DNA from: Pelosinus fermentans DSM 17108
Lineage (GTDB): Bacteria; Bacillota; Negativicutes; DSM-13327
Direction of reading: 5' to 3'
Length of the DNA stretch: 64,000 nucleotides
Assembly (NCBI RefSeq): GCF_000271485.2
Contig: NZ_AKVN02000001.1
Location: forward strand, 1,058,001-1,122,000
Both the position numbers and the translations under genes were made by a program. Shown one piece after another: positions 9,316 to 53,727 of this stretch; within the stretch, counting starts at the first letter, position 1, and the number at the start of each line of letters is the position of its first letter. The notes below the pieces were generated by a model, which was given only the letters and a program-made list of their open reading frames with translations, was not told the origin of the DNA and ran no database searches.

Positions 9316-9507
9316 TTGTGACATTTTATCTGCTTATCTTATTTAGTTTTCAGTTTTAAAGATTCGTATCAGACAGGAAGGTCTTCTTTATGTTAAGCAT
9401 ACTGCAGAAGAGCGAAACTTAAAGAAACACCGGCAGGCACCTCGCTGAAGTGACTATGATACAGCTGGATGAATGTAAAACTCCAGCTGCAAACTAGGAG
9501 GTTGGAT
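9316..9507 (+). promoter_or_regulatory. Leader between loaP and the RND gene, with hairpin before the ribosome-binding site
   Basis: CAGCTGGA (9462-9469) and TCCAGCTG (9482-9489) form a perfect 8-bp stem seven bases before the AGGAGG site (9496-9501). AGCGA (9411-9415) can pair with TCGCT (9442-9446). The region could hold a LoaP recruitment hairpin or translational control; no promoter is convincing. Confidence 0.4.
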
Positions 9508-12500
9508 GTGCGTACTTTTTTTATCGATCGTCCGAATTTTGCTATTGTTTTATCACTGTTTATTGTGATTGTTGGCTTAATTGCAGCATTTCACTTGCCT
9601 ATTTCCCAATATCCCCAGATTGTGCCTCCAAGAGTGAATGTCAATACGAGCTATTCTGGTGCAAATTCGGAAGTAGTGGAACAGTCAATCGCTCAACTGC
9701 TTGAACAGCAGATTAACGGAGTTCAAGATATGGTAGAAATGCAATCTACCAGCCAGGATAACGGGTATTATTCGCTGAATGTCAAATTTGAATTAGGTAA
9801 AAATGAAGACATGTCATTAGTGCAAATCCAAAATGCAGTAGCCCAGACCAATGCAAATATGCCTCAAGAAGCGCAGCAGAATGGAATCATTGCCCGTAAA
9901 GTAACACCGGATACGGTTTTATATTTTGTACTGTGGTCTCCAAATGGAACTTATGATCGTGTACTTATGAAAAACTATGCTACGATCAATATAAATGATG
10001 AGATCAGGCGCATAAAAGGTGTGGGGAATGTCAACGAATATGGAGCTGATTTTGGAATGCGGATTTGGCTGCAGCCAGATAAGATGGCTCAGCTAGCAAT
10101 CACAACAAGTGATATATATGATGCCATTCAGAAACAGAATGTGCAAGCGCCAGCAGGGATCATCGGTCAGGCACCTTATGCCCCAGGGCAGGAATATCAG
10201 TATACTGGTCGAGTAAAAGGAAGATTAACAGAAGAACGGGAATTTGAGAACATCATCCTTCGAGCCAAATCCGACGGTTCGCTGGTACGACTTAGTGATG
10301 TCAGTAAGGTTCAATTAGGCGGCAGGCATTATGCTTATTCCAGTGACTTTAACGGGAAAGATGCTGTGCTGTTTGGTATACAGCTAACTCCAGATGCCAA
10401 TGCTTTTGAGACAGTTGCTCAGGTAAAAAAAGTAATCAAGCGTGCACAGGCGGAATTTCCTTCTGATCTACAATGCAATATTGGTGTTGATAATACTAGT
10501 TATGTGGATGAATCCTTAAGAGAAGTAATTAAAACTTTTGTGGGATCGATTTTATTAGTACTTTTCATTGTATTTATATTCTTAGGCAGCTGGAGGGCCA
10601 CTCTCATTCCGATGCTGGCAATTCCCGTTTCGCTAATTGGGACGTTTGGTGCATTTTTACTGTTGGGCTTTTCGATTAATACGCTAACTTTATTTGCTAT
10701 GGTATTGGCTGTAGGATTAGTTGTGGACGATGCGATTGTCGTGGTTGAGGCAGTTGAACGCCATATACGTTATAGCAAATTGTCTCCCAGAGAGGCGACA
10801 AAACAGGCAATGGGCGAGGTGACCAGACCGGTTATAGCGATTGCTTTTGTACTGGCGGCTGTGTTTATTCCCGTAGCCTTTATGGGAGGGACAGTAGGAG
10901 TATTATACAAACAGTTTGCTTTAACGATTGTAGTATCAATGCTGCTGTCGGCCTTTGTGGCACTTACTACGACGCCGGCACTTTGTGCAATGCTCTTAAG
11001 GCCGTATAACCCCAAGGATTATACTGGGGCATTAGGAAAAATATTAGAAGGTTTTAATACGTGGTTTGAACGAATGCTTGAGAAATATGAGGTTGGTGTT
11101 GGATGGGCTATTCAAAAAATACGTCTCTGTCTGATGCTGTTATTAGTTTTGATCATTATGATCGGTATGCTGATTCATGTTCTGCCATCTTCTTTTGTGC
11201 CTGGTGAAGATCAGGGAAATTACATTGCGGCTATAAGTTTGCCGGAAGGGGCAACTATGAGTCGTACAAGGGAGGCAGCCAATAAAGTATGTGAAATCTT
11301 TGCAGATATACCTGGTGTTGAATCTACTACCGTATTTACTGGGTATGATGTATTGGCGGATGCTGGAAAACCGAATGCTGCAGCAATCTTTGTCCTGCTC
11401 AAACCTTGGTCTGAGCGGCAAGAACCAGAACTGCAGATTGAAAATCAGATACGCACTGCGTTCATGAAAACAAGTCAGATTTCAGAAGCAATGATATTGG
11501 TTTTCGAACCGCCTACACTTCCAGGGGTTGGTACCTATGGCGGATTTACATATATGCTTCAGGATAAGACCGGTGGCAGCATTGAGAATCTAGATGATAT
11601 TTCTCGAAAGTTCATAGGTGCGGCCAGGCAAAGGCCGGAAATTGGACTGGTGTATTCCACTTTTCGAACGGATACTCCCGGCTACCGTTTTGAAGTGGAC
11701 CGTGAGAAGACGATGAAACTGGGAATACAGGTAAAAGACGTATTTAATGCTTTGCAAACCTTTCTAAGCGGTTTGGAGGTTAATGATTTTAATCAGTTTG
11801 GGCGTACTTATAAGGTGATTATGCAGGCAGAAGCCCAATATCGAAGTAGCGTAGATGCTACACGGTTCTTATTCCTGCGCAGTGCTGCAGGAGAAATGAT
11901 ACCTCTTAACACGCTGTTAAAAACAGTGCCGATTAATGCGCCAACTGTTATTAAACGATTTAACGGCTTTAGAGCAGTACAGATTGGAGGAAATCCTGCG
12001 CCTGGCTATAGTTCTGGACAAGCTATGGCGGCATTGGAAGAAGTGGCAGCTCAAATCCTGCCGCCGGGTTTTAGTTATGAATGGGCCGAGCAAAGCCGGG
12101 ATGAAAAAATTGCAGGTGAGCGTGCTCCCATCATATTTACTTTTGCACTGTTATTTGTATTTCTTTGTTTGATAGCACTTTATGAAAGCTGGATTGTACC
12201 TTTTGCAGTTCTCTTATCAGTCCCTACAGCCATTTTTGGATCGTTCCTGTTCCAATATGTAAGAAATCTTGAAAACAATATTTATATGCAGATTGGGCTG
12301 ATAATGCTCATTGGGCTAACTGCCAAAAATGCGATTCTAATTGTAGAATTTGCTAAAGTTAGAGTGGATCATGGCATGGACCCTGTTCATGCGGCAATTG
12401 AAGCGGCAAAGCTTCGCTTACGTCCCATAGTAATGACTTCAATGGCTTTTATACTTGGATGCATCCCTCTGGCAGTGGCTACTGGTGCCGGCGCCGGTGC

Positions 12501-12660
12501 CCGTATTTCTATGGGAACTTCGGTAATAGGAGGGATGCTTATGGCTACAATTATGGGGATTTTTATTATTCCGGTGTTATATGTGGCTGTTGAACGGATT
12601 GCCAAGAGATTGACAGGCAAGAAGCAAAAAAAGCAAGATCCGTCTATTCCTATAGGCTAA
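9508..12660 (+). CDS. RND-family (HAE1) efflux pump, inner-membrane transporter
   Basis: About 1050 residues, the usual AcrB/MexB length, proton-driven. It starts FFIDRPNFAIVLSLF and shows the LPISQYPQIVPP porter entry, the TM4 proton-relay pair in VGLVVDDAIVVVE, and the TM10 Lys in LTAKNAILIVEFAK. GTG 9508 is chosen: AGGAGG at 9496-9501 is correctly spaced for it, whereas ATG 9469 adds 13 residues atypical of the family and lies within a hairpin. No membrane-fusion protein or outer-membrane channel gene is next to it, which is unusual. Its place between loaP and the PKS genes suggests export of, or self-protection against, the polyketide. An RND pump implies an outer membrane. Confidence 0.93.
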   Translation: MRTFFIDRPNFAIVLSLFIVIVGLIAAFHLPISQYPQIVPPRVNVNTSYSGANSEVVEQSIAQLLEQQINGVQDMVEMQSTSQDNGYYSLNVKFELGKNEDMSLVQIQNAVAQTNANMPQEAQQNGIIARKVTPDTVLYFVLWSPNGTYDRVLMKNYATININDEIRRIKGVGNVNEYGADFGMRIWLQPDKMAQLAITTSDIYDAIQKQNVQAPAGIIGQAPYAPGQEYQYTGRVKGRLTEEREFENIILRAKSDGSLVRLSDVSKVQLGGRHYAYSSDFNGKDAVLFGIQLTPDANAFETVAQVKKVIKRAQAEFPSDLQCNIGVDNTSYVDESLREVIKTFVGSILLVLFIVFIFLGSWRATLIPMLAIPVSLIGTFGAFLLLGFSINTLTLFAMVLAVGLVVDDAIVVVEAVERHIRYSKLSPREATKQAMGEVTRPVIAIAFVLAAVFIPVAFMGGTVGVLYKQFALTIVVSMLLSAFVALTTTPALCAMLLRPYNPKDYTGALGKILEGFNTWFERMLEKYEVGVGWAIQKIRLCLMLLLVLIIMIGMLIHVLPSSFVPGEDQGNYIAAISLPEGATMSRTREAANKVCEIFADIPGVESTTVFTGYDVLADAGKPNAAAIFVLLKPWSERQEPELQIENQIRTAFMKTSQISEAMILVFEPPTLPGVGTYGGFTYMLQDKTGGSIENLDDISRKFIGAARQRPEIGLVYSTFRTDTPGYRFEVDREKTMKLGIQVKDVFNALQTFLSGLEVNDFNQFGRTYKVIMQAEAQYRSSVDATRFLFLRSAAGEMIPLNTLLKTVPINAPTVIKRFNGFRAVQIGGNPAPGYSSGQAMAALEEVAAQILPPGFSYEWAEQSRDEKIAGERAPIIFTFALLFVFLCLIALYESWIVPFAVLLSVPTAIFGSFLFQYVRNLENNIYMQIGLIMLIGLTAKNAILIVEFAKVRVDHGMDPVHAAIEAAKLRLRPIVMTSMAFILGCIPLAVATGAGAGARISMGTSVIGGMLMATIMGIFIIPVLYVAVERIAKRLTGKKQKKQDPSIPIG

Positions 12661-12750: not shown

Positions 12751-13707
12751 TTGAAAAAATCCAAAATATTTATGTTTTCAGGTCAAGGATCACAGTATTA
12801 TCGTATGGGCAGGGAGCTGTATGCCACGAATATAACGTTTCACCATTGGATGTCTAGAATGAATCACATAATACAGCAAAATGCTGGAATTAACATTCTA
12901 GAAGAAATATACAACCCAGCAATACATAGATCTACCGTATTTGATAAGCTGTCCTACACGCATCCGGCTATTTTTATGGTGGAATATTCCTTAGCACGAG
13001 TATGCATAGAAAATGGGATTGAACCGGATTATGTGTTAGGAGCAAGCTTAGGAGAATTTGTTTCAGCAGCGATTACTGGCATTTTATCATTGGAAGCAGC
13101 GTTAGAATGTCTATTGATTCAGTCTGCGTTAATCCAGAGTGATTGTCGGCCAGGCAGTATGACAGCGATTGTTCATCATCCTGAATTATATAAGCAAACT
13201 TCTGTTATCCATGACCATTTTGAGCTTGCTGCGATCAATTATTCTTCCCATTTTATTATATCCGGCAATTATCGTGATGAATTGATGACTGTAGAAGCAT
13301 ATTTAAAGAGGGAGGGAATTATTTTTCAGACACTTCCTGTAAGGTATGGCTTTCATTCTGCCAATATTGAACCGATAGAGAGGGAATATAAGAAAAAATT
13401 AAGTAATTTAACATTCAATCATCCTCAGGTACCTTTCATATCATGTGTATCGGCTGGCAGCGTTGACGATATTGATTCGGAGCATTTTTGGAATGTACTT
13501 CGGCAGCCGATTGATTTTCAAAAAACGATACAAAGGCTGGAAGCAGGTAATCAGTTTATGTATATTGATTTAGGTCCATCTGGAACATTGGCTAATTTTG
13601 TGAAAAGAAACCTAACTCCTGACTCGGAGTCAAAAGTGCATACTATTTTAACTCCTTTTGGACAGGATGTCAGGAAACTGCAAAAAGTAATAGAATCATT
13701 AAATTAA
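12751..13707 (+). CDS. Stand-alone acyltransferase-like protein, probable proofreading acyl hydrolase (PksD/PedC type)
   Basis: 318 residues of the FabD/AT fold: FSGQGSQYYRMG at the start, nucleophile motif GASLGE, and the downstream catalytic His in YGFHSANIEP. The Arg that normally binds the malonyl carboxylate (QKRG in the following gene) is replaced here (IQSALIQ). Together with the second AT-like protein next door, this fits the pairing in trans-AT clusters of one true malonyl transferase and one AT-like acyl hydrolase that clears stalled acyl chains from ACPs. It starts with TTG at 12751, 8 bases after AAAGGAG; an ATG at 12747 is out of frame. Hydrolase versus transferase is inferred from the missing Arg. 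Confidence 0.82.
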   Translation: MKKSKIFMFSGQGSQYYRMGRELYATNITFHHWMSRMNHIIQQNAGINILEEIYNPAIHRSTVFDKLSYTHPAIFMVEYSLARVCIENGIEPDYVLGASLGEFVSAAITGILSLEAALECLLIQSALIQSDCRPGSMTAIVHHPELYKQTSVIHDHFELAAINYSSHFIISGNYRDELMTVEAYLKREGIIFQTLPVRYGFHSANIEPIEREYKKKLSNLTFNHPQVPFISCVSAGSVDDIDSEHFWNVLRQPIDFQKTIQRLEAGNQFMYIDLGPSGTLANFVKRNLTPDSESKVHTILTPFGQDVRKLQKVIESLN

Positions 13708-13729
13708 ATGATGAAAGGGGTTATTGTGC

Positions 13730-16096
13730 ATGATTACATATGTTTTTCCTGGTCAGGGTTCCCAGAGTAAAGGGATGGGGGGATCACTTTTTGATGAATT
13801 TAAGGAATTGACGTTAAAAGCAGATGAGGTTCTGGGGTATTCAATTAAGCAGCTTTGTCTGGAAGATGCAGAGTCCAATTTAGGTGAAACACAATATACT
13901 CAGCCTGCTTTGTATGTAGTGAATGCATTAGGTTATCTTAAAAAAGTTAAAGATACAGGAAAAGAACCCGATTATGTTGCTGGCCATAGCCTGGGGGAAT
14001 ATAATGCCTTATTTGCTGCAGGAGCATTTGATTTTACGACGGGATTAAAACTTGTACAAAAGAGGGGACAACTTATGAGCCGCGCTGTTGGAGGCGGCAT
14101 GGGAGCAGTAATTGGTCTAAATGAAGAACAAATATCCGATGCTTTAAAGAAAAATAATATGCTGACGATCGATATTGCAAATTATAATTCGCCTACGCAG
14201 ATTGTAATTTCTGGATTAAGAAAAGATATTGAAGATGCACAGCCTGTTTTCGAAGGAATGAAGGATGTGCAAATGTTTCTTTTACTGAAAACAAGCGGCG
14301 CATTTCATTCTCGCTATATGCAGGAAGCCAGAAAGGAATTTGAAATATTCTTGCAGAATTTTACATTCTCTGATCTGCGCATCCCTGTAATTTCAAATGT
14401 TTATGCCAGACCCTGTAAACAATTCGCTGTAAAGCAAAACTTAATTGAACAGATCACTCAACCCGTTAAATGGACTGAAAGCATTCGATACCTGATGGGA
14501 CTTGGAGAAATGGAATTCGTAGAAATTGGATCTGGTAATGTCTTAACAGGATTGATTAGACGAATTAAAAGAGAAGCACAGCCATTAAAACTTACAGATA
14601 TTGAAAGCAAGAATGATTTGAAAAAAGATGATCTTTCTATACCGCCAGAGAGAGCATCTTTTTTAATTGATACAGAAACAGCTGAGGTACATAATCAGAA
14701 AAGTAATAATGAAAAAGCAAAAGAAAATAATAGAAAATTTGAAGGAATATCCTCATCATCTTTGGGAAGTGCTGCGTTTAAGAAAGACTATAATATTCAA
14801 TATGCCTATATAACTGGTGCAATGTACCGGGGAATTGCTTCAAAAGAAATGGTAGTAAAAATGGGGAAGGCAAAAATGATGGGGTTTCTTGGAACTGGCG
14901 GTCTAAACGTATCACAAATTGAAGCAGCCATTCAATATATTCAAAAGGAGCTTTCCGAAGGACAGGCCTATGGGATGAATTTGCTCCATAATCCAATTGA
15001 TCCTAAGAAAGAAGAAGAAATAGTAGATCTTTATTTGTTGCATGGTGTGAAAACTTTGGAAGCAGCGGCTTTTATCAGTATTACTCCAGCCTTGGTTAAA
15101 TACCGGGCCAAAGGAATGACGCGAAATCCTCAGGGCGAAGCTATTGCATTCAACAGGATCATTGCTAAAGTATCACGGCCGGAAGTGGCAGAAACATTCT
15201 TTAGCCCTGCTCCGGAGCGGATTGTTGCGAAGCTGCTGGCAGAAAAGAAAATTACAGAGGAAGAAGCAGATCTATTAAAGGCGGTTCCTATGGCTGATGA
15301 TATTTGTGCCGAAGCCGATTCGGCAGGGCATACAGATGGAGGAGTAGCTTCTGCGCTAATACCGGCAATGATTACGCTGCGAGATCAGATGATGAGAAAA
15401 TATCAATACCAGAAAAAAGTACGAGTTGGCGCAGCCGGAGGCATTGGGACTCCTGAGGCTGCAGCTGCGGCCTTTATTATGGGGGCAGATTTTATCGTGA
15501 CGGGTTCCATTAATCAGTGTACAGTAGAGGCATCTACAAGCAGCAATGTAAAAGATCTGCTGCAGCAGATGAATGTTCAGGATACGGATTATGCGCCTGC
15601 AGGAGATATGTTTGAAATGGGTGCCAAAATTCAGGTATTAAAAAAGGGACTATTCTTTCCGATACGGGCGAATAAATTGTATGAATTGTATCGGAGGTAT
15701 AATTCATTGGACGAGATTGATGAAAAAACTAAGGTACAGATACAGGAAAAATATTTTAAAAAAAGTTTTAGCGATGTATATCAAGATATTAAATCCTTTT
15801 ATCCTGCTGAAGAAATCGAAAAAGCAGAACGAAATCCTAAGCACAAAATGGCCCTCATTTTTCGGTGGTATTTTGGTTATAGTACTCGATTGGCTTTAGG
15901 AGGAAGTGAGGAAAATAAAGTTGACTATCAAATACATTGCGGACCTGCTCTCGGGGCATTCAATCAATGGGTTAAAGGAACAAATTTAGAAGATTGGAAG
16001 CAGAGGAACGTAGATGTGATTGCAGTAAAATTAATGAATGAGACTGTAGAATTATTAAATCAGCGCTATAAAAACTTCTTGGAGAATTGCAATTAA
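13730..16096 (+). CDS. Trans-acting malonyl transferase fused to PfaD-like enoyl reductase (PksE type)
   Basis: 788 residues from ATG 13730, 9 bases after AAAGGGG. Residues about 1-290 are an acyltransferase with all key parts: FPGQGSQ, GHSLGE, the carboxylate-binding Arg in VQKRGQLM, and GAFHS, whose Phe fits malonyl specificity. After a charged linker (about 290-345), residues about 350-780 are an FMN-dependent TIM-barrel enoyl reductase of the PfaD type ([45 protein letters not shown]). Since none of the PKS modules has its own AT, this protein should supply malonyl units to every ACP. The ER acts in trans; which module it serves is not visible. Confidence 0.93.
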
Positions 16097-16163: not shown

Positions 16164-17159
16164 ATGATACGCTGTGACAAATGTATAATGCCGGAAACAA
16201 ATCCCCATGTTGTTTTAGATGAAAAAGGGGTATGCAATATCTGCAATCAGCAGAAAGACAGGAAGGATGAGGATACCAGCAGCAGCCAAGACAAAAATTT
16301 TGAAGTGTTAAAAGCTAAAATAGAAAAATCCAGATCCAAAAATACTGGGAAATATGATTGTGCAGTGGGGCTTTCCGGCGGTAAGGATAGTACGATGACC
16401 TTATATCTGGCTAAAAAAGAATTAGGATTGAATCCATTGGCAATTTTTATTGATAACGGGTTTGCTCTTGAAGAAATGTACTATAATATACAGACTGTTA
16501 CCAGTAAATTAGGAGTAGATCTCATTGTTTATAAGCCAGGTGAAATTAAAGATTTCTTAATCTACCTTTTGAAATCGAAGAAGCCCATATATTATTGCAG
16601 GCCCTGTCATGAATTGCTTGATGTGTATGTCAGGGATATAGCATCCAAACACGGGATAAACTTAATCCTGGGGGGATACACTAAAGGACAGGAGTATGTT
16701 AAGAATACGGAGTTATACTGGTTATTTGATATATCTGATAAAAGTATTCATGATGAACTTAGCAAAGAACCTGATTTTAAAGATATCTTATCTATTTTAG
16801 ATGACCATGCGCTATATCTATATGAGACGTTTGAATCTATGGTTCAAATAAACCCTTTTCAATATATGAAATATGATGATGAAAGCATAATTAAATTTCT
16901 TACCCGGGAATTTAACGTCAGATTTCCTAAGAAGAGTTGGCCGGCAGATTCAACAAATTGCTTTTTTAACTACGTGTCTCAGCATTTAGCAGTAAAAAAC
17001 TTTGGTTATTCACAGCATGAGACTGAACTAAGCACTCTCATCCGCAAAGGTGAATTGAGCAGAGAGAGGGCACTTCATATTATTAATGCACCAATTCCCA
17101 TGGAATATGTTGAGGATGCCCTTAGCAGACTTGGCTTAAAATATGAGGACGTAATATAA
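16164..17159 (+). CDS. PP-loop (N-type) ATP pyrophosphatase, amidotransferase-like; candidate oxazole cyclodehydratase
   Basis: 331 residues. An N-terminal zinc knuckle (CDKCIMPE ... GVCNIC) is followed by the PP-loop SGGKDST at about residue 72 and a further CRPCHE motif at about 150. This combination resembles N-acetyl sugar amidotransferases, but no LPS or pseudaminic acid genes are nearby. The gene immediately precedes a PKS gene whose first module builds N-formylglycine. To my knowledge, oxazole-forming pathways primed by N-formylglycine (conglobatin, oxazolomycin) also encode a PP-loop protein proposed to cyclise that end, so a similar role is the leading guess. Thioamide or amide formation is an alternative, as PP-loop enzymes also activate carbonyls for sulfur or nitrogen attack. 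A strong terminator hairpin follows. Confidence 0.75.
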   Translation: MIRCDKCIMPETNPHVVLDEKGVCNICNQQKDRKDEDTSSSQDKNFEVLKAKIEKSRSKNTGKYDCAVGLSGGKDSTMTLYLAKKELGLNPLAIFIDNGFALEEMYYNIQTVTSKLGVDLIVYKPGEIKDFLIYLLKSKKPIYYCRPCHELLDVYVRDIASKHGINLILGGYTKGQEYVKNTELYWLFDISDKSIHDELSKEPDFKDILSILDDHALYLYETFESMVQINPFQYMKYDDESIIKFLTREFNVRFPKKSWPADSTNCFFNYVSQHLAVKNFGYSQHETELSTLIRKGELSRERALHIINAPIPMEYVEDALSRLGLKYEDVI

Positions 17160-17170
17160 GGAATTTTTTG

Positions 17171-17216
17171 CAGTTATAACCTGCCTGGCTGAAAGCCGGC
17201 AGGTTATAACTGTTTT
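17171..17216 (+). terminator. Strong terminator hairpin inside the PKS operon
   Basis: CAGTTATAACCTGCC (17171-17185) pairs perfectly with GGCAGGTTATAACTG (17198-17212), topped by GGCT/AGCC with a 3-base loop and followed by TTTT. It separates the PP-loop gene from the first giant PKS gene with no obvious promoter after it, as expected of a terminator overridden by LoaP. Confidence 0.8.
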
Positions 17217-17281
17217 CTAAACACGTAGGATAGTACGAAATGACGATCAGTCAAAGAAAATCGATTGAGGAGAGGGATCGT

Positions 17282-20200
17282 ATGGGTAATGACGGTAAAT
17301 TCAGCTGCTATATTATTGGTGACGGGGCATTACTTACTGCTTGCGGGGAACTCATAATTGATTCCGGTCATGATATTTACGGAGTTATTTCTTCCAATCC
17401 TTCCATTCGGGAATGGGCTGAAGACAAAGGAATAACATGTGCAGATCATGACAGCGATTATGGGGATTTCTTAAAACAAAAGCCTTTTGATTATTTATTT
17501 AGCATCGTTTATCTTAGCCTAATACCCAGAAACATACTTGCATTGCCGCAAAAAATGGCGATAAATTTTCATGATGCATTATTGCCCGAATATGCGGGGA
17601 TACACGCGACTTCTTGGGCTATAATGAATCAGGAGAAACAGCATGGAATCACCTGGCACGAAATGGTCTCTGCGGTTGATAAAGGAAATATTCTAAAACA
17701 AATGATAATACCAGTCGAAGAGGGGGAGACAGCACATTCTTTAAATGTGAAATGTTATAAGGCGGGGTTGGAATCTTTTAGGGATCTGGTAGAGGAACTG
17801 GCTAAGGGCAGCTATTCACTAACCTTTCAAGATTTAAATCGTCGAACGTATTATGGAAAATATCAGCATCCTCCTGCCGGATGTGTTTTATCATGGGGCT
17901 CTTCTGCTGAGGAAATGGATGCAGTTGTAAGAGCGCTGCAATTTGGAAAATATCAGAATCAACTTGGAATTGCCAAGTTGGCAGTGAATGATGAATATAT
18001 TATTGTTGACCAGATTTTTGTTACCAAAAATAAATCAGATGCAAAGCCTGGAACGATTGTTGCTATTACAGATTTGAACTTTACAGTGGCGACGGTAAGC
18101 AATGATATTGAGATACGTTCAATCAGATCTATTCATGGAGCCCAATGGCCAATTTCTGATTGCATAAAAAAATATCATTTAAAGGCAGGAGGCTTATTGC
18201 CTGGAATTGCTAGGAAAACAAGTACGAGAATTACAGCATTGCATAAGGAAATAAGCCGATTCGAAGACTATTGGATTAAAAAATTGTCAAAAATGGATGC
18301 TGCTATCTGGCCAGGTGCTATTCAAAATGCAGAGGACATAGATAGCATTCATAATTCCTTCGTAGATTTTACAATAGCGGAAGGGTTTATCACTTATGCA
18401 GAGCAGGATTACGGCAGTCGATTGGCAAGTTGTTTAGCTGCCATTAGTACGTTTTTATCCAAAGAATGCAAGACAAACAGTGTTCAAATTTTTCTTGGAT
18501 ACCAGGAATTAAGAGCCGATTTTCAAGGCGTGGATACGCTGTTTGCTGTCCATGTGCCCGTGGAGTTGGAATTGAATGATACTTTTACTTTTAGAGATAT
18601 TTGTGATATTGCAAGGGCAGAAATACAATCTGTAAAGGAGCACCAGACTTTTCTTCATGATCTTATTGTTCGAACTCCTCAACTGAAGGCGAATTCTGTT
18701 GTACATGAAAAAAAATTGCTGTCATTCACAGTGGAATATGTAAAAGAGCTTACGGATTATTCTCAGCAGGCCTGCAATAGGTACGGCATTTCATTAATTG
18801 TGCCAGAAATGGGCAATACTTGGCGGATTGTTTTTAATGAGGCGCTGTTAACAACAACAAAAGCTGTTAACGGTACGAATCGGCTTGCAGCATGTATGGC
18901 GCGAGCTGCTGCCACGCCAGATGCTCCCATAAGTAAATTGACTGCCTTGACAGATGCTGAATTTCACAAAGCAATATATGAGAGAAATCATACAGTTGCT
19001 GAATATCCAAGAGATAAGTGCATGCATGAATTATTTAAAGAGAGAGTTAAGCAATCACCGGAAAAAATTGCTGTACTGTACAGGGATGAAAGTCTGACGT
19101 GTATGGAATTAGAAGAAAAAGCATCACGTCTTGCTTCCTTTTTAAATCGAGTTGGGGTAGGCAGAGGGAACTTGGTAGGGATTTTTATGGAACGATCATT
19201 GGATATGCTGGTGGGATTACTGGGCGTATTGAAAGCGGGAGGAACCTATGTGCCGATTGATCCCCTTTATCCTGGAGAAAGAATTTTGCACATGATTGAA
19301 GATGCAGATATTAAAATGGTTCTGACACAGAATGAGATCAAGCATAAGCTACCTGGCAGCAATGCCAGGATCATTTGTCTGGATACAGACTGGGAGGAAA
19401 TATCTAAGAATAGCGGCAAAAGCTCTTCGCGGAAATATTACTCTTATGCGAGCAAGACTATCAGACCTGAGGATTCGGCATATGTTATTTTTACATCAGG
19501 TTCAACGGGAAAGCCAAAAGGTGTGGAAGTAACCCAGAGGGGATTGACAAATTTTCTTTGTGCGATGGCGAAGTGTCCAGGTTTTACAAAAGAAGACCGA
19601 GTTCTGGCGTTAACGACAATCTGCTTTGATATTGCAGGTCTTGAGTTATATTTGCCTCTTATTACTGGAGGGCAGGTTGAAATATTGCCTACAGAAATCG
19701 CCCGAGATGGATTTGCACTAAAAGAACGGATTGAGAAGGAATGGGCTACTGTTGTTCAGGCTACGCCTGCAACATGGGAGATGCTTCTAGAGGCTGGCTG
19801 GGATAAAAGAACATCGATTAAGATATTATGCGGCGGAGAAGCGTTAAGCAGACAATTAGCACAAAAGCTCTTAGACAGAAGTAATGAAGTTTGGAATATG
19901 TATGGACCGACAGAAACGACAATTTGGTCTTCTGTTTCCAAAATCAATTTTGGGGAAGAAATAACGATCGGATATCCTATTGGAAATACTCAATTTTATA
20001 TAGTAGATGAGCATCTAAATCCAGTACCTGATGGAGTGGAAGGGGAACTGTGTATTGGCGGTGACGGGTTAGCAAAAGGATATTTGAATCGTCCGGAATT
20101 GACCAGTGAGAAATTTATTTTGAATCCATTTGCTGCGGATTTACAATTAAAAATGTATCGAACTGGAGATTGTGCTACGTATTTACCGGATGGCAGAGTA

Positions 20201-23200
20201 GTTTGTTTAGGAAGAATCGATAATCAAGTGAAGTTGAGAGGATTCAGGATTGAGCTTGGTGAAATTGAGGCAGTCTTACAAAAACAACTTCATGTCAAGC
20301 AGGCAGTAGTCGTAATGAAAGAAGACAGCACAGGATATAAAAGCTTAGCTGCATTTATGGTGCCAGGTAAATTCCAAGATATTATCGCAGGAAGCAAGCT
20401 TAGGGAAGCAATGAGAGAATTCCTTCCCGATTATATGATTCCTGCCTCCTTTGTGTATCTGGAGATGTTACCCTTGACTCTTAATTTGAAAGTAGATAGA
20501 AAAGTGCTGACAGCTGTCCCTGACTTTCAGCTGATAGAGAAGTATGGCTATAAAGAAATGAATCATCATATATACGTCCCTGCTAATGACAGCATAAAGA
20601 CTCTTGAATGGAAAGAAGAGGCGCCGAAGGCTGCAGGTCATTTTGCAGAGGACCTGACTAAGATCATTGCAGGAGTAGTTAAAATTTCGGCTGAGGAGAT
20701 TCATGCTGAAATTCCCATGGGTGAATATGGTTTTGACTCAATCCGCTTTACCGTACTAAGTAAAAGAATCAAAGATGCATATAACATATCGGTTACTCCT
20801 GCCCAGTTTTATACTTATGAAACCGTTAATAAACTAATTGACTACATGTCAAGGGCTTATCAGGAGGAACTTGACAGGCATTATGGCAAAGAGTCGAAAG
20901 GGATACAGGATTCACTTTCCAAAAGTAAAGTTGAAGCAGCCGATTCAGCGCATGAAGCAGCTTTTGAATTCGATTCAGATCAGAGGAAATGGAAAAAAGA
21001 GCCCGTAGCAATCATTGGTATAGGAGGTACATTTCCTCAAGCCCCTGATTTGGATACTTTCTGGGATCATATTGTAAATAAGAGAGATTTGATTACCCCA
21101 ATACCTTGGGAGCGTTGGGATTCCAATCATTATTATGCTAAAATCGCAGAGGAAAAGAAGATTCCTTTTGCAAAGTGGGGAGGTTTTTTAGAAGATGTTG
21201 ATAAATTTGATGCAGCATTCTTTAATATCTCACCCCGTGAAGCTGAGCAGATGGATCCTCAGCAGCGCATATTTCTTGAAACGGTATGGAAAGCAATTGA
21301 GATTGCGGGCTATAAGGCATCAGAATTCTCTGGTACTAAGACTGGCGTATATGTTGGAGCAGTAAGTTCAGATTATTGGGATATGATGTTATGTTCCGGA
21401 CTTGAGGCTGATTCGTATACCATTTCAGGGAATATCAACTGTGTGATTGCAAACAGGGTTTCTTATTTATTGAATCTTCAAGGAGCCAGTGCAACCATTG
21501 ATACCGCATGCTCAAGTTCTTTAGTAGCAATCCATAGAGCTGTGGCCGCGATACAACATGGTGATTGCGACATGGCAATTGCTGGCGGCGTTAATGTTAT
21601 ATTGAATCCTTTCATGCATACTGCTCTGGGGATCAATGGAATGCTTAGTGTGGATGGGCGGTGCAAAACCTTTGACAGCCAGGCAAATGGCTATGTAAGA
21701 GGGGAAGGGGCAGGAGTACTCATTTTAAAGCCTCTCAGCAAAGCCATTGAGGATGGTGACAATATCCATGCAGTTATTAAAGGTTCTTCTGAAAACCATG
21801 GAGGAAGGACAAATTCATTAACGGCTCCGAATCCTAATGCACAAGCCGATTTGCTTATCAGTGCTTACAGTGAGGCACAAATCGATCCATCGACAGTAAC
21901 CTATATTGAAGCCCACGGGACAGGGACTAGCTTGGGAGATCCAATTGAAATTAACGGCATAAAGATGGCCTTTGAAGAATTGGGTAAAAAGTGGGGAAGG
22001 ATAGGAGCTGAAAAGTACTGCGGTCTTGGATCCGTAAAGAGCAATATAGGACATTTGGAGGCTGGTGCCGGTGTCGCAGGGCTGCTAAAAATAGTACTGG
22101 CAATGCAAAAAGGCGTCCTGCCTGGAATGATTCATTTTAAAGAACAAAATCCGTACATCAACTTAGAAGGAACGCCGTTTTATATTGCAGCTGAGACACA
22201 GGAATGGAAACGGATAAGGGATAGTGCAGGGCAAACCGTACCAAGGAGAGCCGGTGTGAGTTCTTTTGGCTTTGGCGGCTCCAATGCACATGTTGTTCTA
22301 GAGGAATATTGCAGTACGAAAACAAATGCTGAAATAAACGATAACATTCCCAATGTTTTTCTGCTTTCTGCCAAGAGTGAGGACAGGCTTAGAGCATATG
22401 CTGCCGATATGCTTGCATTTTTAGAAGAATTTGCAGCACGTGAAGAAAAAGGAGAATGGATAGGGACTCTTTTTACTGATATGATGTATACCTTGCAGAT
22501 GGGGCGCGAGGCTATGAATAAACGACTTGCCATCGTCGCTTCTAATATAAAAGAGCTGACTGAGAAGCTAAGACAGTACTGTGCCGATGAAAAAGAAATA
22601 ACACAAGTCTATACAGGAGCCGGCGGACTGGAAACAAAGAACATTTCAGCCCTGCTTGAAGGAAGCAACGGCAAAGAGTTTCTTGCAGCGATCATAAGAC
22701 AAAAGGAATATAAGAAATTGGCTCATCTTTGGATTGGGGGAGCAGCGGTAGATTGGAGTTTGCTATACAGCCATTCGAAGCCCGCACGAATCAGCCTGCC
22801 ATCATATCCTTTTGCCAGGGAGCGCCATTGGCTGCCTATCAATAAAAATGTACTGGTAAGTAAATCTGAAGTACAGCCAGGCCGGCTTCATCCTTTGCTG
22901 CACCAAAATACCTCTGACTTTTTTGAACAGCGTTTTAGTTCAGTCTTTTCAGGGAATGAATTTTTTCTTAAGGATCATATTGTTAAGGGGCAGCGGGTGC
23001 TGCCAGGAGTTGCTTACCTTGAAATTGCTCATGCGGCAGTCGTACTGGCTTCAGGTATGAAAGAGAAACAGAATAGTATTAAGATCAAGAATGTGACTTG
23101 GATTCGTCCGATGATTGTGGGAGATATAGAATTGCAGGTACAAATCAGGCTCTTGCCGGAAGAAAATGGAGATATCAATTATGAAATATATAGTCAGTCA

Positions 23201-26200
23201 GCCTTAGGCGGCACTGCAGCAACCGTACATAGTCAGGGGCGTGCTGTACTGAGTCCGGTTACCGAACCTTCCGCATTAGATCTGCAAGCCTTACAGAGAC
23301 AATGCAGTCATGGCACTATTTCATCTGGTCAGTGCTATGAAGCTTACAGGACGATGGGAATTGATTATGGACCAGGACATCAGGGCATCAGGGAAATCTA
23401 TGTGGGAGAATATCAGGTTCTGGCAAAGATCTCTATGCCATCGTATGTTCGTGATATGCAGGAAGAGTTTATCATGCATCCCAGCATAATGGATTCAGCC
23501 TTACAAGCATCAATTGGCTTAATCATGAGCTATGGCGAAATAGAGCCTTCAAAACCAATTGTACCCTTTGCCTTACAAGAGATTGAGATTTTTCAGAAAT
23601 GCACTTCTGCTATGTGGGCTCATGTCCGTTATAGTAACGGCAGTAAACCAGGCGATAAAATACAAAAATTAGATATTGATGTATGCGATGAGCTGGGAGG
23701 AATTTGTGTACGATTAAAAGGCTTCTCCGCCAGAGTAATGGAGAAAGATAATATTCAGAAGGAATCATCAGCGGTTCTGGAAACGCTGATGTTCCATTCC
23801 AGCTGGATAGTAAAAGATGCCAATGCAGAAGCTGCTTTCCCGGATGATACGCAGCAGATCGTAATCTTTTGTGAACCAGATGAAATGGTTAAGGAAAAAA
23901 TCAAGGAAAAGATGAACAGCAATCGTTACCTTATTTTACAGTCGAATCAGGAGCAGGTAGAGGAGCGGTTTCAATCCTATGTATTTCAAGTATTTGATGA
24001 AATTCAAAATGTACTTAGAAGCAAGCCTAGAAACAATGTTTTAATCCAAATTATCATCTCAATACAAGAAGAGCAGCAGCTCTTTTCTGCACTTTTTGCC
24101 TTAATAAAAACAGCTCATCTTGAAAATCCCAAGGTATGGGGACAATTGATTGAAGTGGAATTAGGGGAGTCTTGGGAAAGACTTTCGGAAAAGCTGGCAG
24201 AGAATAGTCGATGCCCGATGGATAGGAGAATTCAATATCTGAATGGGAAACGCCGGGTTGCTGTTTGGAGGGAAATAGAAAGCTCCCTGGAGGTTTTACC
24301 AACTCCATGGAAAGAGCAGGGAATCTATTTGATCACAGGAGGTGCAGGAGGCCTAGGGTTACTATTCGCTCAAGAGATTGCACAGCAAGTTAAGAATCCG
24401 GTCATTATTTTAACTGGCCGATCTGCCCTTAATGAAGAAAAGCGTGAAAAACTGAAGAGATTGGTGGAATTGGGGGCTAAGATCGAATACAGGCAGGCCG
24501 ACATAACGGATAAGAAAGGGGTTATCAGATTGATCCAAACCATTCAGGAGCAATTTGGTGATCTTCATGGCATTATTCATGCTGCAGGAGTAATCCGGGA
24601 TAATTTTATTATAAAAAAGACGAAAGAAGAAATACAGGAAGTTTTGGCTCCGAAGGTTTCAGGGCTAGTGTATCTGGATCATGCCACTAGAAATATGAAG
24701 CTGGATTTTTTCATTCTGTTTTCCTCTATATCAGGAAGTCTGGGCAATGTGGGACAGGCTGATTATGCTGTGGCCAATGACTTTATGAATGCATATGCCG
24801 GATATCGTAATGCTCTGGCTGCAGCAAAACAGCGGCAGGGTCAGACGCTTGCCATAAATTGGCCTTTATGGCAAGCGGGCGGGATGAATGTTAATGAAGC
24901 AATCGAAAAAATGATACGAAATATGGGTATGGCAGCCATGCCTACTGCCAGCGGTCTAAGATTATTCTATTTAGGGATGAATACAGATAAGGATCAAGTG
25001 CTGGTAATGACAGGCGATCCAGGGCGAATACAGGAAAAGCTGCTTTTAACAGCACAGCTCTCCCAGCCTGATAAAATCATTGCAGCATCAACTTTTACGG
25101 AAGCGGCTTATGGCAGTAATCTGCTGGACATAATCCAGTCACTTTTAATACAAATGACATCCAAGCTGCTTAAGGTCAGGATAGAAGAAATAGATAGCAA
25201 CACGGAATTGAATGAATATGGTTTTGACTCCATTACATTCACTGAATTTGCAAATCAGCTCAACCAAGAGTATAAGCTTGAATTAACACCTGTTATATTT
25301 TTTGAATATCCAACTCTCCATCGTTTTGCTGAGTACTTGCTCGAAAGTTACCAAGCTGTATTTTCATCACAATTAGCAGCGCAAAAGGATACAGATCTCA
25401 TTTCACCTAAAGTCATTGATAATGGCAGTCTGCTAGAGAATATACAGATGATTTTAATCCAAGTCGTATCGGGATTGCTCAAAGTTAGAGCCAATGATAT
25501 AGACAGGAATACGGAACTAAATGAATATGGATTTGACTCCATTATGTATACTGAATTTGCTAATCTACTGAACCAGGAATATAAATTTGAATTAACTCCT
25601 GCTGTATTCTTTGAATATTCTACCATTCAAAGTTTTGCAGAATATCTCACTAAAGAGTATCGCACTCTGCTGGTATCACAATTTGCAGCAGCTGTGAATG
25701 TTGAACAAACCACGATACATGTGCCCACAGAGGGCCTGCATACGAAAAGCTATTCTCGATTTATAAGGACAATGCCCCTGACGTTGTCCAAAGTGGATGA
25801 AAAGGATCAGGAAGCCATTGCAATAGTTGGGGTCAGTGGCATATTCCCCATGGCTAAAGATATGAATGAACTTTGGAAGAATCTTCTGGAGAATAAGGAT
25901 TGTATTACAGAGATTCCTAAAAGTCGCTGGGATTGGCGGGAGTATTATGGTGATCCTGTAAAAGACATCAATAAGACTAACATTAAGTGGGGAGGATTTA
26001 TTGATGGCATAGAGGAGTTTGACCCTTTATTCTTTGGAATTTCTCCACGAGAAGCTGAATTAATGGATCCGCAGCAGCGCCTGTTAATGACTTATGCCTG
26101 GAAGGCAATAGAAGATGCCGGTTACTCGGCTCAAAGTCTTTCTGGCACGCAAACAGGAATTTTCGTAGGGACTGCAAGCTGCAGCGGCTATAGCGGCTTA

Positions 26201-28549
26201 CTATCGCTTTCTAATACAGCACTTGAAGGATATTCTTCCACAGGTACGCTGCCGTCGGTAGGGCCGAATCGGATGAGTTATTTCTTAAATATCCATGGGC
26301 CCAGCGAACCGATTGAAACGGCTTGTTCAAGTTCCTTAGTAGCGATTCATCGGGCTGTAACTGCGATAGAAAATGGAGCCTGTGAGATGGCGATTGCCGG
26401 TGGCATTAATACAATGGTAACACCGGAGAATCATATCAGCTTTAATAAAGCAGGTATGCTCTCAGAGGATGGACGCTGCAAGACCTTCTCCGACCAAGCC
26501 AACGGTTATGTACGAGGCGAAGGAGTGGGAATGCTGTTTCTAAAGAAGCTAAAAGATGCGGAGGCAGCCGGAGACCATATTTATGGGATTGTTAAAGGAA
26601 CTGCTGAGAATCATGGAGGGCACGCTAATTCTTTGACGGCTCCCAATCCCAAGGCACAGGCCAAGCTGCTGGAAACTGCATATACAAAAGCAGGAATTGA
26701 TCCCAGGACCGTTACCTATATTGAAGCCCATGGAACGGGCACTGAGCTTGGCGATCCTATTGAAATCAATGGACTGAAAGCAGCTTTTAAGGAATTGTAC
26801 CAAGCAACAGGAGAGGCTGCAGTGACAAGCAGGCATTGCGGTTTAGGTTCAGTGAAGACCAATATTGGTCATTTGGAGCTGGCAGCAGGAGTAGCAGGCG
26901 TGATCAAAGTGCTGCTGCAGCTAAAACATAAAACTCTGGTGAAAAGTCTTCATTGCGATACGATAAATCCATACATACGGCTTGCAGGGAGCCCGTTTTA
27001 CATTGTGCAGGAACAGACAGAATGGAAAGCCCTGCAGGACGCAGCAGGAAAAGAAATTCCAAGACGGGGCGGAGTGAGTTCCTTTGGTTTTGGCGGTGTA
27101 AATGCTCATGTGGTAATTGAAGAATATATCTCCAAAGAGCAGAACACGAATCCAATTCCGGTCAATGCTCAGAATCCGGTACTGATTGTATTGTCAGCCA
27201 AGAATGAAGAGCGGCTGAAAGAACAGGTGCAGCAGCTCTTGGTCACGATGGAGGAACAGCATTTTGAGGATCATCACCTGGCTGATATAGCGTATACCCT
27301 TCAGGTAGGACGAGAAGCTATGGAGGAACGCTTGGCAGTGATGGCGGAATCCATTGCACAACTTAAGGAGAATTTAAGAAGCTTCTTAAAAGAGCCGGAA
27401 AATAATAAGGACGTATATCGCGGACAGGTCAAGCGCAATAAAGATACTGTCGCTGTTTTTACAGCTGATGAAGATTTTGAACAAATCATTGGTATTTGGG
27501 CAGCCAAAAGAAAGTATACCAAGATTTTAAATTTATGGACGAAGGGACTGTCTTTTGACTGGAATAAGCTTTATGGTGAGGCAAAGCCTCGAAGAGTCAG
27601 TCTGCCTACATATCCATTTGCCAAGGAACGTTATTGGGTATCCAGTGGGGCTAAATCTGCTTCTGGTTTAACATCTGCAACCGTTCTGCATCCGCTGCTG
27701 CATCAAAATATCTCTGATTTTTCTGAACAGCGGTTTATCTCAAACTTTATGGGACAAGAATTTTTTATAAATCATACTGCTGTGAATGATCATAGGTCTT
27801 TGACAGCAGTTGCTTATCTTGAAATAGCGCGAGCAGCAATCTCCCATTCGGCGGGATCTTTTTATAAAGACAGAAATGAAATACGGCTGAAAAATGTGGT
27901 TTGGGCCAGCCCGGATGCAATCGGCGAGCAGGGGATTCAGCTATATATCGGACTTTGTCCTGAAGATAATGGAGAAATTTCTTACGAAATTTATAGTGAG
28001 AATGAAAAGTCTGATGCAAAGCTGCAAGTTTACAGCCAGGGAAGTGCAGAATTATTTTCCGCTGAAGAATCTCCAGCATTAGATATTGAAGCATTGCAAA
28101 AGGAGTGCTGCCAGACGATCCTTACATCTGTTCAAATTTATGAGAGGTTAGAGCGTATCTATAAGACAGAGTATAAAGGGATTGAAAAGGTGTACGCAGG
28201 AGTAGGACAGGCACTAGCAAAACTGACTTTGCCGTCCTCTCTTGCAGATACACAGCATCAGTTTATCCTGCATCCTGTTTTAATGGATGCTGCCTTGCAG
28301 GCAGCAATGGCTCTAATGGATGGATTTGGTAATGAAAGCATGTATGCTCTCCTTGCATTACAAGAAATCGAGATCCTTTGCCCGCCGGATCTTACAATGT
28401 GGGCTCTAATTCGTAATCCTAATGGCAGTGAAACCCAGGATAAATTTCCTGCGTTTGATATCAGCTTATTGAATGAACAAGGGAAGATTTGTATTCGGAT
28501 GAAAGGCATCAAAATACAGGAGAATACAGAAAGGAAGCTATTGAAATGA
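17282..28549 (+). CDS. PKS1: hybrid NRPS/trans-AT PKS with N-formylglycine-type loading module
   Basis: About 3755 residues. Domains by window position: formyltransferase 17300-18190 (catalytic N-x-H in INFHDALLP and Asp in VDKGNI); C-terminal half of a condensation domain 18230-18960, without HHxxxDG; adenylation domain 19010-20540 (specificity residues by eye D-I-L-Q-L-G-M-I-W-K, glycine-like); ACP1 20640-20870; KS1 21000-22300 (Cys at 21509, both His); DH1 22885-23740 (HIVKGQRVLP, DSALQ intact); KR1 23780-25020 (B-type, GVIRDN); tandem ACP2 and ACP3 25130-25660; KS2 25815-27130; DH2 27685-28520, degenerate (no Gly/Pro after His). No AT domain. ATG 17282 has GAGGAG upstream; ATG 17240 is an alternative. 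The protein ends before the KR that should follow DH2; that KR starts the next gene, whose ATG overlaps this stop (ATGA). Confidence 0.93.
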   Translation: MGNDGKFSCYIIGDGALLTACGELIIDSGHDIYGVISSNPSIREWAEDKGITCADHDSDYGDFLKQKPFDYLFSIVYLSLIPRNILALPQKMAINFHDALLPEYAGIHATSWAIMNQEKQHGITWHEMVSAVDKGNILKQMIIPVEEGETAHSLNVKCYKAGLESFRDLVEELAKGSYSLTFQDLNRRTYYGKYQHPPAGCVLSWGSSAEEMDAVVRALQFGKYQNQLGIAKLAVNDEYIIVDQIFVTKNKSDAKPGTIVAITDLNFTVATVSNDIEIRSIRSIHGAQWPISDCIKKYHLKAGGLLPGIARKTSTRITALHKEISRFEDYWIKKLSKMDAAIWPGAIQNAEDIDSIHNSFVDFTIAEGFITYAEQDYGSRLASCLAAISTFLSKECKTNSVQIFLGYQELRADFQGVDTLFAVHVPVELELNDTFTFRDICDIARAEIQSVKEHQTFLHDLIVRTPQLKANSVVHEKKLLSFTVEYVKELTDYSQQACNRYGISLIVPEMGNTWRIVFNEALLTTTKAVNGTNRLAACMARAAATPDAPISKLTALTDAEFHKAIYERNHTVAEYPRDKCMHELFKERVKQSPEKIAVLYRDESLTCMELEEKASRLASFLNRVGVGRGNLVGIFMERSLDMLVGLLGVLKAGGTYVPIDPLYPGERILHMIEDADIKMVLTQNEIKHKLPGSNARIICLDTDWEEISKNSGKSSSRKYYSYASKTIRPEDSAYVIFTSGSTGKPKGVEVTQRGLTNFLCAMAKCPGFTKEDRVLALTTICFDIAGLELYLPLITGGQVEILPTEIARDGFALKERIEKEWATVVQATPATWEMLLEAGWDKRTSIKILCGGEALSRQLAQKLLDRSNEVWNMYGPTETTIWSSVSKINFGEEITIGYPIGNTQFYIVDEHLNPVPDGVEGELCIGGDGLAKGYLNRPELTSEKFILNPFAADLQLKMYRTGDCATYLPDGRVVCLGRIDNQVKLRGFRIELGEIEAVLQKQLHVKQAVVVMKEDSTGYKSLAAFMVPGKFQDIIAGSKLREAMREFLPDYMIPASFVYLEMLPLTLNLKVDRKVLTAVPDFQLIEKYGYKEMNHHIYVPANDSIKTLEWKEEAPKAAGHFAEDLTKIIAGVVKISAEEIHAEIPMGEYGFDSIRFTVLSKRIKDAYNISVTPAQFYTYETVNKLIDYMSRAYQEELDRHYGKESKGIQDSLSKSKVEAADSAHEAAFEFDSDQRKWKKEPVAIIGIGGTFPQAPDLDTFWDHIVNKRDLITPIPWERWDSNHYYAKIAEEKKIPFAKWGGFLEDVDKFDAAFFNISPREAEQMDPQQRIFLETVWKAIEIAGYKASEFSGTKTGVYVGAVSSDYWDMMLCSGLEADSYTISGNINCVIANRVSYLLNLQGASATIDTACSSSLVAIHRAVAAIQHGDCDMAIAGGVNVILNPFMHTALGINGMLSVDGRCKTFDSQANGYVRGEGAGVLILKPLSKAIEDGDNIHAVIKGSSENHGGRTNSLTAPNPNAQADLLISAYSEAQIDPSTVTYIEAHGTGTSLGDPIEINGIKMAFEELGKKWGRIGAEKYCGLGSVKSNIGHLEAGAGVAGLLKIVLAMQKGVLPGMIHFKEQNPYINLEGTPFYIAAETQEWKRIRDSAGQTVPRRAGVSSFGFGGSNAHVVLEEYCSTKTNAEINDNIPNVFLLSAKSEDRLRAYAADMLAFLEEFAAREEKGEWIGTLFTDMMYTLQMGREAMNKRLAIVASNIKELTEKLRQYCADEKEITQVYTGAGGLETKNISALLEGSNGKEFLAAIIRQKEYKKLAHLWIGGAAVDWSLLYSHSKPARISLPSYPFARERHWLPINKNVLVSKSEVQPGRLHPLLHQNTSDFFEQRFSSVFSGNEFFLKDHIVKGQRVLPGVAYLEIAHAAVVLASGMKEKQNSIKIKNVTWIRPMIVGDIELQVQIRLLPEENGDINYEIYSQSALGGTAATVHSQGRAVLSPVTEPSALDLQALQRQCSHGTISSGQCYEAYRTMGIDYGPGHQGIREIYVGEYQVLAKISMPSYVRDMQEEFIMHPSIMDSALQASIGLIMSYGEIEPSKPIVPFALQEIEIFQKCTSAMWAHVRYSNGSKPGDKIQKLDIDVCDELGGICVRLKGFSARVMEKDNIQKESSAVLETLMFHSSWIVKDANAEAAFPDDTQQIVIFCEPDEMVKEKIKEKMNSNRYLILQSNQEQVEERFQSYVFQVFDEIQNVLRSKPRNNVLIQIIISIQEEQQLFSALFALIKTAHLENPKVWGQLIEVELGESWERLSEKLAENSRCPMDRRIQYLNGKRRVAVWREIESSLEVLPTPWKEQGIYLITGGAGGLGLLFAQEIAQQVKNPVIILTGRSALNEEKREKLKRLVELGAKIEYRQADITDKKGVIRLIQTIQEQFGDLHGIIHAAGVIRDNFIIKKTKEEIQEVLAPKVSGLVYLDHATRNMKLDFFILFSSISGSLGNVGQADYAVANDFMNAYAGYRNALAAAKQRQGQTLAINWPLWQAGGMNVNEAIEKMIRNMGMAAMPTASGLRLFYLGMNTDKDQVLVMTGDPGRIQEKLLLTAQLSQPDKIIAASTFTEAAYGSNLLDIIQSLLIQMTSKLLKVRIEEIDSNTELNEYGFDSITFTEFANQLNQEYKLELTPVIFFEYPTLHRFAEYLLESYQAVFSSQLAAQKDTDLISPKVIDNGSLLENIQMILIQVVSGLLKVRANDIDRNTELNEYGFDSIMYTEFANLLNQEYKFELTPAVFFEYSTIQSFAEYLTKEYRTLLVSQFAAAVNVEQTTIHVPTEGLHTKSYSRFIRTMPLTLSKVDEKDQEAIAIVGVSGIFPMAKDMNELWKNLLENKDCITEIPKSRWDWREYYGDPVKDINKTNIKWGGFIDGIEEFDPLFFGISPREAELMDPQQRLLMTYAWKAIEDAGYSAQSLSGTQTGIFVGTASCSGYSGLLSLSNTALEGYSSTGTLPSVGPNRMSYFLNIHGPSEPIETACSSSLVAIHRAVTAIENGACEMAIAGGINTMVTPENHISFNKAGMLSEDGRCKTFSDQANGYVRGEGVGMLFLKKLKDAEAAGDHIYGIVKGTAENHGGHANSLTAPNPKAQAKLLETAYTKAGIDPRTVTYIEAHGTGTELGDPIEINGLKAAFKELYQATGEAAVTSRHCGLGSVKTNIGHLELAAGVAGVIKVLLQLKHKTLVKSLHCDTINPYIRLAGSPFYIVQEQTEWKALQDAAGKEIPRRGGVSSFGFGGVNAHVVIEEYISKEQNTNPIPVNAQNPVLIVLSAKNEERLKEQVQQLLVTMEEQHFEDHHLADIAYTLQVGREAMEERLAVMAESIAQLKENLRSFLKEPENNKDVYRGQVKRNKDTVAVFTADEDFEQIIGIWAAKRKYTKILNLWTKGLSFDWNKLYGEAKPRRVSLPTYPFAKERYWVSSGAKSASGLTSATVLHPLLHQNISDFSEQRFISNFMGQEFFINHTAVNDHRSLTAVAYLEIARAAISHSAGSFYKDRNEIRLKNVVWASPDAIGEQGIQLYIGLCPEDNGEISYEIYSENEKSDAKLQVYSQGSAELFSAEESPALDIEALQKECCQTILTSVQIYERLERIYKTEYKGIEKVYAGVGQALAKLTLPSSLADTQHQFILHPVLMDAALQAAMALMDGFGNESMYALLALQEIEILCPPDLTMWALIRNPNGSETQDKFPAFDISLLNEQGKICIRMKGIKIQENTERKLLK

Positions 28550-53707: not shown

Positions 53708-53727
53708 AGAGGGGGAGAAAAAGAGAA

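Follow-up and report, generated by a model that had tools for sequence, protein, structure and literature searches.

What reaction does a PP-loop ATPase perform when its gene stands directly before a candidate loading module for N-formylglycine? The question arises in a 64,000-nucleotide stretch of the Pelosinus fermentans DSM 17108 genome (hereafter the window), where a gene for a 331-residue PP-loop (AANH) protein with a predicted NASAT fold lies at 16164..17159 (forward strand, as are all window features below). In the ORF list and the window sequence it starts with ATG behind an AGGAGG, 67 bp 3' of the trans AT-ER gene and 80 bp 5' of PKS1 (17240-28549), and is the sole same-strand ORF between these two genes. 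A first-pass annotation had proposed an oxazole cyclase, naming amide or thioamide formation as the alternative. We recovered the ORF and the two motifs that it had reported, SGGKDST (residues 71-77, with the PP-loop SGGKDS, residues 71-76, at 16374..16391) and CRPCHE (residues 145-150). The zinc knuckle that it described is present too, and belongs to a tetracysteine C4xxC7...GVC24xxC27 (16173..16244) in which C4, C7, G22-V-C24 and C27 follow CXXCXn[GN]XCXXC, the motif given for the NASAT zinc site (PMC10607449). Alignment adds a second set of cysteines as candidate metal or Fe-S ligands: C145-R-P-C148 (16596..16607) and, as a possible third ligand, C266 in an STNC motif (16959..16961).

The PP-loop gene belongs to a Pelosinus trans-AT PKS cluster with a reductase-type release domain. 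Profile matches identify an RND efflux permease (9469..12660), a trans acyltransferase (12751..13707) and the trans AT-ER protein, FabD plus PfaD (13724..16096), on the upstream side. PKS1 opens with a formyltransferase (FT) domain (17240..18184, by profile and structure-sequence match; best formyltransferase match 4xd1, 5.5e-20), followed by a linker of about 280 residues, an adenylation (A) domain (19034..20509), a PCP (20627..20884) and KS1 (20975..22279). The code of the A domain, read by eye as DILQLGMIWK, is taken to specify glycine; among solved structures the linear gramicidin synthetase LgrA is closest to this domain. The FT-A-PCP unit thus begins 80 bp behind the PP-loop gene, as had been claimed, and we likewise saw no sugar-pathway neighbours in the window. 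Module 1 continues with DH1 (22889..23749), KR1 (24320..24874) and tandem ACPs (25145..25663), and is followed by KS2 (25793..27097). Behind PKS1 come PKS2 (28489..39069 by its first listed start, the ATG at 28546 directly behind PKS1 being likelier), PKS3 (39092..53707), PKS4 with a terminal thioester-reductase-type domain, NAD_binding_4 (53704..62691), and a phosphopantetheinyl transferase found by profile match (62767..63570).

Several further features of the cluster are noted here in their own right. A hairpin at 17170..17213, between the PP-loop gene and PKS1, consists of a near-perfect 20 bp stem followed by TTTTC (-32.3 kcal/mol, z -7.8); it is found in all five Pelosinus copies compared and is altered in a Pelosinus relative, G061. 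Upstream, at 8720-9247, lies a NusG-like gene that we noted together with the hairpin and that is perhaps a LoaP-type antiterminator. The DH2 at the end of PKS1 (about 27700-28480) has lost HxxxGxxxxP (NHTAVNDHRSLT), the DH at this place being intact in P. fermentans JBW45 and in G061, and the single PCP of the loading module (20627-20884) corresponds to two in tandem in the same two genomes. Over 28774-62642, about 21 kb including NRPS modules are absent from the window relative to JBW45, and PKS2-PKS4 of the window contain near-identical module copies.

The protein itself most closely resembles NASAT. Its best NCBIfam model is WbuX (TIGR03573), at 173.5 bits and under the curated cut-off of 203.2. 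An AlphaFold2 model built from 39 aligned relatives, themselves NASAT-like sequences, reached pLDDT 81.4 and pTM 0.82 (a first model from four near-identical orthologues, with pLDDT 44.9, was discarded), and the full length of this predicted structure can be superposed on LpNASAT 8WEX (Z 24.0, 309 residues aligned, rmsd 3.6). The next match is the [4Fe-4S] protein LarE at Z 13.3; sulfurtransferases and GMP and NAD synthetases score Z 11-13. In phylogeny, the Pelosinus proteins fall outside the 15-member sugar clade (100/100) and adjoin it at 95/90 in one tree and at 91/79 in a second computed without the long branches L083, L085 and L025. A grouping of the Pelosinus proteins with the NRPS/PKS-linked members is compatible with a tree test (p 0.241) but not established by it. 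WbuX scores of ten homologues separate three that are linked to hisHF (290-363 bits) from seven others (81-162, all under the cut-off). The placement inside the sugar amidotransferase clade that would have spoken against the first-pass annotation was therefore not seen, and the position outside this clade, the score below the WbuX cut-off and the lack of a spare HisH/HisF in the genome (one HisH over cut-off, no WbuZ over cut-off) support the view that the protein is not a sugar amidotransferase proper. It is best explained as an enzyme of predicted NASAT fold that was recruited to the assembly line.

This fold brings in a first alternative, a formamidine synthase in which NASAT chemistry with ammonia would turn the N-formyl group into HC(=NH)-NH-. 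NASAT is by far the best fold match, and the family chemistry runs from amide to amidine (PMC10607449). Formyltransferase-like genes lie near L022, L081 and L096, and in the sugar cluster of L096 (5856-8134) such a gene stands directly 5' of the NASAT gene with hisH/hisF nearby, which makes this locus a candidate for a formamidino sugar. Against the formamidine stands the supply of ammonia: the window holds no HisH/HisF, the only pair in the genome being that of the his operon, and we saw no glutaminase gene in the window, whereas hisH and hisF accompany 11 of the 12 sugar-clade members with flanks read. We consider a formamidine unlikely.

Comparison across Pelosinus shows that the PP-loop gene is under strong constraint. 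It is 97-100% conserved in three other Pelosinus genomes (97% in JBW45, G024, and in P. propionicus; near-identical in a Pelosinus MAG), with dN/dS of 0.09 in the comparison with JBW45 and 0.04 in that with P. propionicus. Valid comparisons of other genes and domains with these two genomes gave 0.09-0.40, a range that leaves out the misaligned comparisons of RND with G036 and of FT with G061; the Cfrag and PP-loop values against G061 are too diverged or fragmentary to interpret. Together, this conservation and the low dN/dS indicate that the observation exceeds chance. The place of the gene between AT-ER and FT-A-PCP is the same in the window, JBW45 and P. propionicus (L003, where the draft assembly has a frameshift in PKS1 between A and PCP), although JBW45 differs downstream.

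In G061 the gene order is that of the window, and the PP-loop gene has decayed: its start is absent, about 790 bp are missing, it carries frameshifts and stops, and the PP-loop reads SSGKDS. PKS1 remains open over 5247 residues and retains its FT-A-PCP-KS-DH-KR start in diverged form, with KS1 80% identical at dS of about 1.3, compared with a dS of 0.15 for the AT-ER gene just upstream. From these values we infer that PKS1 may have been exchanged and a PP-loop function that was no longer needed then lost, an argument that rests on one genome with an assembly 83% complete. Since FT, A and module 1 persist in G061 although the enzyme is gone, the PP-loop reaction appears to be an add-on to the start unit that is not essential for the chain.

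These comparisons bear on a second alternative, that the enzyme is a late tailoring enzyme for some other amide or carboxylate in the product, with no functional meaning in the position of its gene next to the loading module. Family members occur in NRPS and ligase loci without any FT gene, and the structural matches include PP-loop folds that serve amide, nitrile and thiolation chemistry. The shared position next to FT-A-PCP despite the downstream differences in JBW45, and the coincidence of the loss in G061 with a diverged PKS1, argue against such tailoring, to which we give only a small chance.

The first-pass annotation had favoured oxazole formation, and the gene set indeed resembles published lines that pair a PP-loop protein with FT-A(Gly)-PCP, all of which, as described, make oxazoles (PMC4504003, PMC5764310). 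In these formylglycine-primed polyketide lines the role of the PP-loop protein is itself only proposed: OzmP, CongE and PtxD are suggested to close the oxazole (PMC4504003, PMC5764310). Applied to Pelosinus, activation of the formamide or the ketone after one malonyl extension would close a 5-substituted oxazole before KR1 acts, and the SGGKDS motif and the arrangement beside FT-A(Gly)-PCP agree with the three published lines. An oxazole made from formylglycine needs the glycine-derived ketone, however, which conflicts with an intact DH1 and KR1. According to the published accounts, module 1 of phthoxazolin is a minimal KS-ACP (PMC5764310), and conglobatin has its three KRs in all with one in module 2 and its DHs in modules 3 and 4, so that its module 1, by our reading of that account, has neither KR nor DH (PMC4504003).

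In Pelosinus, both domains are intact, as the first-pass annotation had also noted. DH1 carries HIVKGQRVLP, matching HxxxGxxxxP, together with DxxxQ, and KR1 carries GGAGGLG, matching GGxGGLG, and the catalytic Tyr in YAVAN. Both are under ordinary constraint: against JBW45, dN/dS is 0.35 for DH1 and 0.18 for KR1, compared with 0.24-0.31 and 0.29-0.33 for the other orthologous DH and KR domains (the first four PKS3 entries and KR2 being left out as parts of non-orthologous modules). Most simply, module 1 would produce a 4-amidocrotonyl intermediate. KS2 points in the same direction. In trans-AT systems the incoming intermediate is held to determine the KS type (PMC7930024), and the six members of the clade that contains KS2 (99/98) come from four assembly lines, each of them lying behind DH-KR-ACP. 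The argument has its limits: a further four KS that follow DH-KR-ACP are placed outside this clade, which means that KS type and incoming module do not correspond strictly here, and sequence exchange between module copies of one line may have occurred. We regard it as rather likely that no ring is closed before KS2.

With the module 1 retained in G061, these results weaken the oxazole interpretation, and we now think an oxazole improbable; amide or thioamide chemistry, the alternative that the first-pass annotation had named, fits module 1 and G061 better and is the better lead. The mass difference expected earlier changes as well. If module 1 reduces in a deletion mutant, an oxazole should lie 2.016 Da below the mutant's product, not 18 Da.

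One ring closure would make use of the reducing domains. KS1, DH1 and KR1 would yield 4-formamidocrotonyl-ACP; once the enzyme had activated the formyl oxygen, attack by the alpha-carbon in the form of a gamma-deprotonated dienolate would give a pyrrole-3-carbonyl thioester in a redox-neutral step with loss of one water. By calculation the masses balance exactly (C5H7NO3 minus H2O gives C5H5NO2, as acids), and DH1 and KR1 would be required, unlike in the oxazole reading. KS2, however, resembles a usual KS for olefinic intermediates, and the KS2 of G061, where the enzyme is missing, belongs to that type as well; we also know of no precedent for pyrrole closure by such an enzyme. A pyrrole is accordingly the most remote of the outcomes weighed here. 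Taken together, the intact and constrained module 1, the KS2 clade and the remnant in G061 make it probable that the formamide is what the enzyme activates, the carbons of module 1 being left as they are.

The second cysteine set offers a hint to the nature of the nucleophile. C145, C148 and C266 sit behind the PP-loop and resemble the Fe-S ligands that the thioamide synthetase CtaC has there, C154, C157 and C284; in CtaC, change of D77 is reported to abolish, and changes of these cysteines to diminish, thioamidation (PMC6772006). All three cysteines occur in 17 of the 46 family members, L085 having only part of the triad, and spacing almost exactly that of CtaC is found in L026 and L027. Both hisH and hisF occur beside 2 of the 14 complete-triad members with flanks read, compared with 12 of 17 members without any triad cysteine. 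Apart from the CWHC group, which we take to be LegG/PseA-like, the triad is found in NRPS/PKS or ligase loci, in which unlabelled ORFs were named by reading. In L005 (15001-15969) and L100 (7001-7966), on alphaproteobacterial plasmids, the PP-loop domain is fused within an NRPS; in L006 (11932-14112), on a Streptomyces plasmid, it forms one protein with a condensation domain, an NRPS gene and asnB being adjacent; L026 and L027 lie within NRPS-PKS loci, and L011 stands beside NadE-like and AMP-ligase genes. The exception is L083, which has the triad next to radical-SAM-like and E1-like genes. These contexts suggest that NASAT-like proteins include a set working on NRPS/PKS lines.

Two observations restrain this argument. 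L104 and L015 have the triad with hisH/hisF adjoining, so the triad is not specific for sulfur. The pair is also missing from 18 of the 32 flanks (L019, L022, L080, L084, L105, L081, L082 and L032 among them), so its absence is not special to NRPS/PKS loci. A query with L027 matched 4 of 398 genomes, all already among those with homologues of P0001, and no CTA-like cluster was recognised among these matches.

Some neighbouring loci are of interest apart from this question. PP-loop proteins with CtaC-like cysteine spacing lie in two Negativicutes NRPS-PKS loci, L042 (9244-10320) and L043 (9497-10546, minus strand), which look yersiniabactin-like by reading. Another Pelosinus (L035, 8647-14837) has an operon of NadE-like and NASAT-like PP-loop genes, an AMP ligase, an acetyltransferase and an acyl-CoA dehydrogenase, all named by reading. 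Another trans-AT PKS (L074-L077, G049) starts with FT and A domains separated by a longer region, and no PP-loop homologue was found within that stretch.

On this basis, we propose a thioformamide. The enzyme would use ATP to adenylate the oxygen of the starter's formamide, while N-formylglycine is on the PCP or shortly afterwards, and would then pass the activated formyl carbon to an external nucleophile, the carbons reduced by module 1 remaining untouched. With sulfide as the nucleophile, and C145, C148 and C266 as candidate metal or Fe-S ligands, the start unit would become HC(=S)-NH-CH2-, much as CtaC forms thioamides on a thiotemplate. That the enzyme acts on the formamide of the starter seems reasonably probable to us, and about equally so adenylation of the formamide oxygen, the AANH chemistry common to every reading apart from unrelated tailoring. 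The whole proposal, sulfide included, is possible and put forward tentatively. Sulfur is our preference because the cysteine triad is present, the host is anaerobic and related proteins are linked to NRPS/PKS. Against sulfur count the triad in the hisH/hisF-linked L104 and L015, the tree position beside the sugar clade, a triad spacing that differs from that of CtaC, the lack of a sulfur-donor gene among those seen in the Pelosinus cluster, and the oxazoles described for the published FT-A(Gly)-PCP lines with a PP-loop protein.

The locus comes from a genus of anaerobes that is distant from Streptomyces. Its module 1 could not serve oxazole chemistry, and in a relative the gene for the enzyme has decayed. 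The exact mass of the product with and without the PP-loop gene would separate the four chemistries (S, NH, oxazole, pyrrole). To our knowledge no thioformamide-primed polyketide has been known before. Pyrrole closure, if true, would open a new redox-neutral way of making a terminal pyrrole and would remove the conflict raised by the first-pass annotation, since DH1 and KR1 would then be needed for the ring. No publication on a Pelosinus polyketide was among the papers listed in literature searches.

Among known systems, NASAT (WbpG, WbuX and LpNASAT 8WEX) shares with the Pelosinus protein the whole-length fold and the tetracysteine and SGGXDS motifs that define LpNASAT (PMC10607449). The Pelosinus protein differs in its score below the cut-off, its position outside the sugar clade, its PKS context without HisH/HisF, and an extra cysteine triad absent from most sugar members. 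The [4Fe-4S] sulfurtransferases TtuA, NcsA and LarE have the PP-loop fold in common with it, but the TtuA/LarE-type match (Z 11-13) covers about 150-195 residues, part of the protein, and their substrates are tRNA or a cofactor. LgrA likewise starts with formylation and adenylation (F-A-PCP), although on a peptide rather than a polyketide line, and we know of no PP-loop partner for it. OzmP, CongE and PtxD, compared by description, are likewise PP-loop proteins with SGGKDS, encoded next to the FT-A(Gly)-PCP of a PKS; Pelosinus differs in having KS-DH-KR-ACP-ACP in place of an unreduced module 1, and no cluster of their type was found among the plasmid matches listed, the contig scan having matched Pelosinus only. 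CtaC, the thioamide synthetase of closthioamide, shares a PP-loop with CxxC and one more cysteine behind it, a thiotemplate context and an anaerobic host, and its cluster, as described, likewise encodes no sulfur donor (PMC6772006). The cysteine spacing is 70/118 in the Pelosinus protein and 77/127 in CtaC, as known from its published description, and CtaC serves a poly-beta-alanine line whereas the Pelosinus enzyme accompanies a polyketide with a formyl starter.
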